64,000 bases of DNA from Stenotrophomonas sp. WZN-1 (GTDB taxonomy: Bacteria; Pseudomonadota; Gammaproteobacteria; Xanthomonadales; Xanthomonadaceae), in contig NZ_CP021768.1 of the NCBI RefSeq assembly GCF_002192255.1, forward strand, positions 2,870,001 to 2,934,000, given 5' to 3'. The position numbers and the translations under genes were made by a program. This document shows positions 10,000 through 15,231 of this stretch, in pieces. A model generated the notes under the pieces. That model did not search any database and was not told the origin of the DNA. It saw only the letters and a list, made by a program, of their open reading frames with translations. Within the stretch, counting starts at the first letter, position 1. Each line of letters begins with the position of its first letter.

Positions 10000-13090
<3,091 letters not shown>

Positions 13091-13199
13091 GGGGTTTCCT
13101 TTGCGGCGGCGGCCGCGGGCGCTGCCTGCGGCAGGCTTTACTGCAACGGCAAAAGGAACTGCAACGTCAAAGGCGGCTCTGGGTTATGCCGTGCTTGGC

Positions 13200-13314
13200 G
13201 GGGCGGGTTGGGTTCGCGGGGGACGCCGTGAACCCGTCCCTGGGGGCTTGGCCGCGGCATCCATGCCGCGGACACCCCCGCGAACCCAACCCGCCCCACC
13301 TCTGACAGTTTTCC
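13200..13314 (+). repeat. Nested palindrome unit A
   Basis: Two perfect 23-base arms (13200-13222 and 13275-13297, core TGGGTTCGCGGG) enclose a 52-base loop. That loop contains a perfect inner hairpin CCGCGGCAT-CC-ATGCCGCGG (13252-13271). The unit is followed at 13302-13314 by CTGACAGTTTTCC. The loop carries GCCGTGAACCCGTCC and TGGGGGCT, which recur in unit B in reverse orientation. Confidence 0.9.
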
Positions 13315-13355
13315 GGTGACGGATCGAAGAGCAGTGGGTTGTCGGGACGGAATTT

Positions 13356-13390
13356 GAAAGAGGGACGCGGCTTCGCCGCGTCCCTCTTTC
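13356..13390. repeat. Perfect 16-bp hairpin with TTC loop
   Basis: GAAAGAGGGACGCGGC-TTC-GCCGCGTCCCTCTTTC is perfectly self-complementary. No T-run of five or more follows on either side, and it is more than 260 bases from either gene end. A terminator role is possible but not obvious. Confidence 0.85.
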
Positions 13391-13400
13391 GTTTGTCCGA

Positions 13401-13443
13401 TGGGGTCAGATCCCTTTTCCATTGGAAAAGGGATCTGACCCCA
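13401..13443. repeat. Perfect 20-bp palindrome, GGGTCAGATCCC family
   Basis: Arms of 20 bases (starting TGGGGTCAGATCCC, tip CTTTTCC) around the loop ATT are perfectly complementary. Related copies with different tips occur near 28.3 kb and 45.9 kb. Confidence 0.9.
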
Positions 13444-13525
13444 CGAGCCCAGGAGCATGAGCAAGCGCAGCGCGCGACCCGCTTTTGCCTTGCTTTTCTT
13501 CTTCCATTCCGTGGCGGCCCCCGCA

Positions 13526-13643
13526 GGAAACTGTCAGGGGCCGGGCGGGGTGGGTTCGCGGGACCGTTGGCGCCATGGATGGCGCCATCGAGCCCCCATG
13601 GACGGGTTTACGGCGTGTCCCGCGAACCCACCCCGCCCGGCCC
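13526..13643 (-). repeat. Nested palindrome unit B (inverted relative to A)
   Basis: Perfect 26-base arms (13538-13563 and 13618-13643, core TGGGTTCGCGGG) enclose an inner perfect hairpin TGGCGCCAT-GG-ATGGCGCCA (13568-13587). On the minus strand the loop reads GCCGTAAACCCGTCC then TGGGGGCT, and CTGACAGTTTCC follows the outer stem, matching unit A. Stem differences from A are compensated on the opposite arm. Confidence 0.9.
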
Positions 13644-13818: not shown

Positions 13819-15231
13819 ATGGCCGCCCGCAAGTCCTCCGCCCCCCTGATCGAAGTCACCGCCCGCCCCGGCCAGCCGCTGGGCATGGCGCCGGCCACCT
13901 TCCTGCGCGATTTCTGGCAGAAGCGCCCGCTGCTGATCCGCAATGCCTTCCCGGACTTCCAGACCCCGGTGCAGCCGGAAGACCTGGCCGGGCTGGCCTG
14001 CGAGGAAGGCGTGCTGGCGCGCCTGATCGAGCACGACAAAGACCAGGATGGCTGGCGCGTGCGTACCGGCCCGTTCCAGGAAGAGATCTTCCCCGCCCTG
14101 CCCGACCGCGACTGGACCCTGCTGGTGCAGGACGTGGACAAGTGGGACAAGGACGTGCGCGCGCTGATCGAGCACTTCAGCTTCCTGCCGCGCTGGCGCA
14201 TGGATGACGTGATGATCAGCTTTGCCGCCACCGGCGGCTCGGTCGGCGCCCACGTCGACCAGTACGACGTGTTCCTGCTGCAGGCCCATGGCCGCCGCCG
14301 CTGGCAGATCGACGCCAGCGAATCGATCAAGGGCAAGCAGCCGCCGCTGGGCTTCCGCCCGGACGTCGAACTGAAGCTGCTGAAGGTGTTCAAACCCACC
14401 CACGACTGGGTGCTGGCGCCGGGCGACATGCTGTACCTGCCGCCGAACGTGCCGCACCACGGTGTCGCCGAAGATCCCTGCCTGACCTTCTCGTTCGGCA
14501 TGCGCGCACCGGCGTCGGCCGAGCTGATCAGCGACTACCTGGACACCCTGATCGCCGATGCCGACGAGAACATCCGCTACCAGGATGCCGACCTGAAGGT
14601 GCCGGCCGACCCGAACGAAATCGACACGGTGGCGATGGCGCGGGTGATCACCGCCCTCAACGCCATCCGCATGAACGACCCGGACAAGCTGGGTGACTGG
14701 TTCGGCCGCTTCATCACCACCTACCGCGCCGCCGGTGAAGTGATGGCCCACCAGGCCGCACCAGCCGCGGAGGAAGTGGTCGAAGCGCTGGCCTCCGGCC
14801 TGCTGCTGCAGCGCCACCCGTGGGCCCGCCTGGCCTGGCGTCGGGCCAAGCGTGGCGCCAGCCTGTACGTCAGCGGCCAGGACTTCGCGCTGCCAGTGAA
14901 GGACGCGCAGCGCCTGGCTGGCGCCGAGCAACTCGACGCCGCCGCCTATCGCGGCCTGTCCGACAAGGGCCGTGCCGTGGTCCAGCAGCTGCTGGTCGGT
15001 GGTGTGTTCCAGCTGATCGACCCGAATGAGGTGTACGAGGCCGAAGACGAGGACGACGGCGAGGATGCTGTGGTGCTCGGCGAGGTCGTCGAAGGCCGCG
15101 ACCGCGTGGATGCGATCGACGCCGATGCGGTGTCCGACGATGTCCACTCCGTGACCGTGCACGACGACGGTATCGAGGTCATCGTCAACTTCGAGGACGA
15201 CGAAGAAGACGACAGCGCCGGCCGGGCCTGA
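13819..15231 (+). CDS. roxA: Ribosomal protein oxygenase, JmjC/cupin family (RoxA/YcfD-like)
   Basis: 470 residues from the ATG after a CAAGGA motif. It is an Fe(II)/2-oxoglutarate oxygenase; E. coli YcfD hydroxylates an arginine of ribosomal protein L16 (uL16). Iron ligands are His145 and Asp147 (GAHVDQYD) and His213 (VPHHGVAED), with the JmjC core at about 120-220. A winged-helix dimerisation region follows (about 280-400). Residues about 405-470 form a very acidic tail (AEDEDDGEDA, FEDDEEDDSAG) longer than that of E. coli YcfD. It is followed after 9 bases by a GNAT gene. Confidence 0.92.
   Translation: MAARKSSAPLIEVTARPGQPLGMAPATFLRDFWQKRPLLIRNAFPDFQTPVQPEDLAGLACEEGVLARLIEHDKDQDGWRVRTGPFQEEIFPALPDRDWTLLVQDVDKWDKDVRALIEHFSFLPRWRMDDVMISFAATGGSVGAHVDQYDVFLLQAHGRRRWQIDASESIKGKQPPLGFRPDVELKLLKVFKPTHDWVLAPGDMLYLPPNVPHHGVAEDPCLTFSFGMRAPASAELISDYLDTLIADADENIRYQDADLKVPADPNEIDTVAMARVITALNAIRMNDPDKLGDWFGRFITTYRAAGEVMAHQAAPAAEEVVEALASGLLLQRHPWARLAWRRAKRGASLYVSGQDFALPVKDAQRLAGAEQLDAAAYRGLSDKGRAVVQQLLVGGVFQLIDPNEVYEAEDEDDGEDAVVLGEVVEGRDRVDAIDADAVSDDVHSVTVHDDGIEVIVNFEDDEEDDSAGRA

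Follow-up and report, generated by a model that had tools for sequence, protein, structure and literature searches.

A divergent, high-copy relative of TwoAYGGAY RNA in Stenotrophomonas, arranged in inverted pairs and proposed as a putative CsrA/RsmA decoy

TwoAYGGAY (RF01731) was introduced as a probable RNA of the human gut, gammaproteobacteria and Clostridiales for which cis-regulation was rated "probably not" (Weinberg 2010; accessible part of PMC2864571), and Rfam assigns it the type cis-regulatory. A paper from 2014 noted its strong matches to the CsrA-binding motif and proposed sequestration of CsrA (accessible part of PMC4333381), and the RNA is so far an orphan that is linked to this protein by prediction. 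The SELEX consensus of CsrA is RUACARGGAUGU, with the GGA preferably in a hairpin loop (PMC4347634, in the part available). CsrB, RsmX/Y/Z and RsmU, which hold or are proposed to hold CsrA/RsmA, likewise present several hairpin GGA motifs; RsmU of Xanthomonas campestris has its source in the 3' UTR of a single mRNA and lacks an Rfam homologue, and the available part of the same source reports no CsrB/RsmXYZ-type homologue in Xanthomonas (PMC7694677). A second group of neighbours consists of the SMAG/GTAG REPs and TIRYT TIRs of S. maltophilia, which resemble the repeat described here in being high-copy intergenic palindromes of the same genus that often form dimers: the REPs measure 20-40 bp and bear a short tag (GTAG or CGTC) on one hairpin side, some TIRs share GGGGWSAS, and tyrosine transposase genes are associated with GTAG REPs as well as with TIRs (available parts of PMC3733652, PMC2817692 and PMC2613905). 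Here, an apparent relative of the orphan RNA takes the form of a high-copy repeat. The literature that we searched, which lay largely outside subscription papers, held no account of these repeats as TwoAYGGAY or as CsrA-binding; the K279a TIR families described in the accessible part of PMC3733652 are a possible earlier sighting.

The window analysed comprises 64,000 nt of Stenotrophomonas sp. WZN-1 (NZ_CP021768.1, positions 2,870,001 to 2,934,000) and is part of a single 4.5-Mb contig. Units A and B lie in a gap of 728 nt that opens after a stop codon at 13090 and closes before the start codon at 13819, an extent that agrees with the gene-free island recognized in the first-pass annotation; from their protein sequences, we take the flanking genes to be purB-like (ending at 13090) and cupin-like (starting at 13819). 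Unit A, delimited with its foot at 13197..13308 by sequence, repeats and genome search, reads on the plus strand as the repeat is aligned, and its inferred RNA strand, based on RF01731 matches and wobble pairs, is the minus strand. Its outer stem joins arms at 13197..13222 and 13275..13300, and on the minus strand it carries the conserved foot CTGTCAG just 5' of that stem (13302..13308), hairpin 2 with hexaloop AUGGAU (13259..13264) and hairpin 1 with hexaloop AGGGAC, a form of ANGGAY (13236..13241). Unit B (13531..13643, delimited in the same way) has the plus strand as its putative RNA strand, on which the foot CTGTCAG (13531..13537) precedes the left arm (13538..13564), hairpin 2 with AUGGAU (13575..13580), hairpin 1 with AUGGAC (13598..13603) and the right arm (13617..13643). 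All four hexaloops were read by eye and from loop-class counts, and both outer stems were placed by repeat analysis.

In the aligned orientation, an outer stem with 23-27 pairs encloses a conserved two-hairpin core in each unit and is followed by CTGACAG, and the reverse strand of each forms a three-way junction of outer stem and two hairpins. As inverted repeats of one another, A and B extend over 118 nt, are 81% complementary and are separated by 216 nt. The loop words and the trailing CTGACAGTTT that the first-pass annotation had described as common to both are present in the sequence, and its count of 23 perfect outer pairs is correct for A, whose 26-nt arms are 96% complementary with 23 perfect pairs from the junction outward; for B, where it gave 26, the arms are 27 nt each and 100% complementary. 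On both strands of both units, all 4 folds were more stable than 200 of 200 dinucleotide shuffles (z from -6.3 to -8.2). Two smaller structures lie between the units. A perfect 21-bp palindrome at 13401-13443, GGGGTCAGATCCCTTTTCC, probably represents a TIRYT-type TIR as described in PMC3733652, because its word also flanks a Y1_Tnp gene (L060) of the genome; palindromes of this type recur in many inter-unit spacers. A perfect 16-bp hairpin with A and T flanks at 13356-13390 resembles a terminator-like hairpin directly behind purB in two more distant Stenotrophomonas loci (L426 and L427), and units A and B may flank a former purB terminator.

A scan of the window with Rfam at gathering thresholds returned 0 matches, and units A and B do not match RF01731 even at an E value of 10. 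Across the genome, scoring 150 of 282 candidates against RF01731 with E values up to 10 gave at least 20 matches, and all 20 matches listed fall on units and on their reverse strand, the best with 46.9 bits against a cut-off of 43 and the other 19 below it. The structural alignment of one copy to RF01731 covers its full length and keeps the CAAG linker and the two loops in register, and a locus from another genus (L214) scores 45.6 bits, above the cut-off. Among 119 family genomes, the cut-off was passed in 4 and matches at 0.001 occurred in 22, some being core-only and some lying in genomes without matches to our covariance model, R1; the source genome had no RF01731 match at 0.001 in this strict-filter family search. 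Because the matches listed all fall on units, the alignment is end to end and most scores are below the cut-off, we place the repeat within the TwoAYGGAY kind, as a divergent branch. Units and TwoAYGGAY share a three-way junction, a covariation-supported outer stem enclosing two same-strand hairpins that end in AYGGAY-type loops, and a CAAG-like linker; unlike TwoAYGGAY, the units reach at least 134 matches per genome, mostly in inverted pairs, have an outer stem of about 25 bp and allow a free second letter in the loop of hairpin 1. Low-scoring miRNA, C4 and Ysr224 matches were set aside as chance products of GC-rich palindromes.

With R1 (E of 0.001 or better), the repeat of about 120 nt has at least 134 matches in the genome, a lower bound that derives from 150 scored candidates out of 5100 and includes one 46-nt fragment; BLAST with unit A found at least 56 matches (40 of 105 candidates scored) and, within the genus, matches in 48 of 61 genomes, the source genome included. 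Neighbours less than 1.5 kb apart account for 92 of the 134 matches, forming 46 pairs and leaving 42 singles, at least three of which (L187, L194 and L210) gained a convergent partner in a later scan. All 46 pairs share one polarity, convergent as aligned, such that the RNA strands of paired units point outward, and 43 have 73-225 bp between their units. The spacers show no conservation and often contain REPs and a GGGGTCAG palindrome: Terminator-like hairpins occur in 16 of 43 spacers versus 1.6% of letter shuffles, and REP or TIR palindromes account for many of those in spacers. According to a home-made gene caller, with which 87 of 88 sites were annotated, 20 pairs lie between convergent, 21 between co-directional and 5 between divergent genes. 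As for the distance to gene ends, whose examination the first-pass annotation had proposed, the outer end of 88 of 133 units faces a stop codon; for 82 of them, the distance is 35-130 bp, with a median of 77. Singles in co-directional gaps have no orientation bias (13 versus 12; for 14 of 20 plus-singles, it is the non-RNA strand that the left gene would read), and hence give no sign of a fixed cis role. A terminator role was rejected, terminator-like hairpins being found in 10 of 99 gaps between stop codon and unit versus 12 of 102 behind unit-less genes.

An autonomous element enclosing a gene was likewise rejected. Of three wide pairs (868, 975 and 1442 bp), one contains a presumably aldolase-like gene, one a gene for 257 aa and one a presumed IS3-type OrfA/OrfB pair, while the pair at L330 encloses what we take to be SDR-like and DsbA-like genes. 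Such a presumed IS3-type OrfA/OrfB pair is the foreign DNA that has entered the pair at L125. In L246 and L259, foreign DNA lies inside hairpin 1 of unit A, at positions within a few bases of one another, and units may be insertion hot spots.

The first-pass annotation had taken the differences between the stems of A and B, each compensated within its own unit, as evidence of selection for folding, either as RNA or as a cruciform. These compensated differences are real and recur across the repeat family: in a MAFFT alignment of 31 copies from the genome (A1), 130 cells had changed on both sides of a pair as compared to 34 after shuffling, none of 500 shuffles reached 130, and such changes affected 24 of 40 stem pairs. 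Among 100 copies from other genera and orders (A4), 1198 cells had changed on both sides, whereas shuffles gave 350 and sliding the structure gave 160-194, with 35 of 40 pairs affected in the alignment, counts that lean towards the model structure to which this alignment was fitted; further pair types showed no excess in A4 (115 versus 120 in shuffles). Within a single orthologous site, that of unit A in 21 genomes, one pair varies between G-C, A-U and U-A, a change on one side being matched by its partner. Two copies are by themselves no proof of selection, but the family-wide covariation in the survey of copies, which the first-pass annotation had proposed, supports it; the picture that would have spoken against folding, recent duplicates with random mismatches and no covariation, does not match the survey.

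Mismatches in the outer stem indicate which strand folds. Read on the reverse strand, the genome's own copies (133 of 134 rows usable) have 65 G.U and 14 A.C mismatches, and those of other genera have 45 and 4 in 34 copies, or 46 and 4 in 36 copies when two copies from L216, which belongs to the same genus, are included (alignment A3, of which the first 37 of 43 rows were used and 36 were usable). Counted per copy, the asymmetry is 49 versus 6 in the genome and 24 versus 0 in other genera; another definition of the arms gives 58 G.U versus 14 A.C, and columns of A4 give 120 versus 20. Such an excess of G.U over A.C identifies the reverse strand as the folding strand, and it disfavours both a cruciform and repair of the arms alone, because either should yield the two classes of mismatch equally; strand-biased mutation could add to the asymmetry. 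Selection for folding is therefore upheld by covariation far above the shuffle and slide controls, by compensation at a single site and by wobble pairs, but its proposed form as a symmetric cruciform fits less well than a single folded strand, be it RNA or single-stranded DNA, since the mismatch classes are asymmetric.

The many differing stems and two near-constant loops amount to a natural experiment that fixes both the strand that folds and the points of contact that are conserved. On the unit strand, ATCCAT in hairpin 2 and TCC.T in hairpin 1 do not vary in any of the 31 rows of A1, the exceptions in hairpin 1 being one free letter and a closing letter that is G or A (rarely C). Loop counts were taken from the first 134 rows of a second alignment (A2, with 150 of 170 matches), which hold no antisense duplicate and represent 131 of the 134 units of the genome search: with the second loop left unconstrained, 123 of the 134 rows contain CATGGATG on the reverse strand, and 114 of these 123 have a hexamer of the form ANGGAY 23 nt beyond it (ATGGAC 44, AGGGAC 26, ATGGAT 21, AGGGAT 10, AAGGAC 6, AAGGAT 4, ACGGAC 2 and ACGGAT 1). 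All four letters occur at N, so that the second letter is free. A separate count found pairs of the motifs at exactly 23 nt in 109 of 134 rows, and model-found rows from other genera have agreeing loops. The stem of hairpin 1 alternates between CCC/GGG and TAC/GTA with its loop kept, and the resulting UAC-ANGGAY-GUA resembles the CsrA consensus RUACARGGAUGU. Whole modules differ between orthologous sites, making exchange among copies likely. In the 5' leader, a third GGA is present in 88 of 134 copies, a count without a control.

Ten long-form units (L130, L137, L138, L151, L155, L173, L187, L189 and L194) were read by eye; one measures 174 nt and the other nine about 207-210 nt. Their insert is a multi-hairpin domain, mostly of about 80 nt, in the loop of hairpin 1 or hairpin 2, with the RNA-strand sequence AGGAC in some of the inserted loops.

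We lean, with modest confidence, towards reading the repeat as a divergent, high-copy TwoAYGGAY RNA that occurs in inverted pairs and acts as a putative CsrA/RsmA decoy. The reverse strand (minus for A, plus for B) would encode a structured RNA of the TwoAYGGAY type, whose long outer stem, free to vary in sequence, would hold up hairpins with AUGGAU and ANGGAY hexaloops 23 nt apart; the hexaloops have the form of CsrA/RsmA sites, with GGA in a hairpin loop, and each unit could accommodate one CsrA dimer. Because the RNA strands of paired units point outward, a transcript crossing a pair from either direction would contain one RNA-sense copy. For this reading we infer transcription of the reverse strand, by read-through or from own promoters, binding of CsrA/RsmA to both loops, a decoy effect of the dispersed copies and the way in which the copies spread. 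The presence of GGA in a short hairpin loop, more than once per RNA, is a trait of CsrA-type RNAs that the units share, and the genome has one csrA gene. Searches of the genome with the PrrB_RsmZ and CsrB models gave nothing over the cut-off; a sub-threshold CsrB match (23.2 bits versus 71, E of 3e-4) on the plus strand at 1119756-1119842 of the contig might be a separate GGA-rich RNA. Unlike CsrB, RsmX/Y/Z and RsmU, each a single sRNA, the repeat comprises many dispersed small copies with two predicted sites each. Counting against a decoy are the RF01731 scores below the cut-off, the window copies without a match and the unoriented singles, as well as the pairs in other taxa whose units are sometimes just 1-20 bp apart, leaving little room for promoters between them. 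A bolder version, which we regard as doubtful, is that a repeat family turned a regulatory RNA into a genome-wide CsrA/RsmA sponge of more than 100 units, with two putative docking loops each and read-through-active pairs, such that CsrA activity would be set by read-through transcription pooled over the whole genome and not by one CsrB-like gene. If the loops bind CsrA/RsmA, Stenotrophomonas would have an unusual way of tuning this protein; otherwise, the family represents some other kind of hairpin element, one that is widely conserved.

The main rival to a decoy RNA, though in our view an unlikely one, holds that the units are mobile hairpins of single-stranded DNA, akin to REPs, TIRYT TIRs or attC sites: the reverse DNA strand would fold, an HUH-type or other enzyme would recognize the hairpins and the CTGTC foot, and the pairs would be the two ends of a small non-autonomous element. 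A G.T wobble would be equally tolerable in a folded single DNA strand, and the asymmetry of mismatches hence suits any single folded strand; the one polarity of 46 of 46 pairs is as expected of terminal inverted repeats, copies are amplified and interspersed, and the conserved foot just 5' of the hairpin recalls tagged REPs. Such an explanation accounts for polarity and spread but not for the free N in ANGGAY, which is a protein-RNA pattern; no enzyme that would serve it was encountered in this analysis, and several further observations argue against it. The proximity of units to RAYT-type genes, suggested for examination in the first-pass annotation, was not borne out: No convincing unit was found beside any of 51 distinct Y1_Tnp genes (4 of the genome itself and those of 29 + 20 loci, two seen twice), and the weak matches at Y1_Tnp loci that were read (L398, L403 and L404; five others, with E of 0.03-0.17, at L060, L094, L099, L112 and L122 fell outside that reading) are GTAG REPs. 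We therefore rejected a REP/RAYT or TIRYT origin. Unlike SMAG REPs and TIRs, the units measure about 120 nt and lack GTAG and the other tags, and, in the source genome, the Y1_Tnp gene at L060 is flanked by GGGGTCAGATCCCTTT instead of units, in contrast to genes flanked by TIRYT TIRs; the published TIR sequences belong to ORFs 1152 and 4509 of K279a, whose TIR families are the possible earlier sighting named above. Integron attC sites have conserved core sites and a linked integrase. Spacers of the pairs are without conservation, and, in all 29 testable loci from other genomes (of 32, three being too short), both flanks map to one unit locus of the source genome, with the bias towards shared sites that comes from choosing best-match loci. 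Outside the S. maltophilia group, moreover, neighbours less than 400 bp apart are convergent in 30 cases, divergent in 10 and direct in 2, as counted from a hand-typed match list that leaves out several weak or partial matches, and 7 of the 10 divergent neighbours are steps between units of longer arrays.

ERIC and NEMIS repeats provide the comparison for a still less probable explanation, that of a passive transcribed palindrome, in which a stable hairpin at mRNA 3' ends would be protective or cut by RNase III, loops would have no partner, and template switching or gene conversion would restore perfect arms. The stop codons faced by unit ends and the likely exchange of modules between copies agree with it, but arm repair alone would neither keep ANGGAY with a free N nor produce the asymmetry of G.U over A.C, relatives with unrelated arms in other gammaproteobacterial orders go unexplained, and terminator-like hairpins are, by the counts given above, about equally frequent between stop codon and unit and behind unit-less genes.

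The putative decoy RNA extends beyond the genome and the genus. A strict-filter search gave matches at 1e-6 in 35 of 149 family genomes (5 of the same genus), representing 14 of 54 genera. A scan with the core pattern matched at least 119 stretches, of which 80 are listed, and those listed include Xanthomonas, Stenotrophomonas, Shewanella, Alteromonas, Idiomarina, Marinobacter, Alcanivorax, Rheinheimera, Oceanisphaera and Methylotuvimicrobium; loop conservation in these loci is circular, as the search pattern contained the loops. Behind purB, an A unit is present in 22 and a B unit in 22 of 30 loci of the genus, according to a hand-typed list that omits a partial match in L254 and weak matches in L246 and L266; several of the remaining loci stop at contig breaks, and L265 has a remnant of A. 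Among 20 purB loci from more distant Stenotrophomonas, pairs occur in L414 and L419, one strong match each in L426 and L427, and weak matches in L430 and L418, and a short gap with no match in L422, L423, L424 and L428. This distribution implies that the site gained (or lost) units within the genus and kept them in the S. maltophilia group. The weak match in L430 (33.6 bits), which contains the words GGACGGGTTCACGGCGG, is perhaps a decayed unit. One viral contig from IMG/VR (L390) also carries the core pattern, which could belong to the host flank of a provirus.
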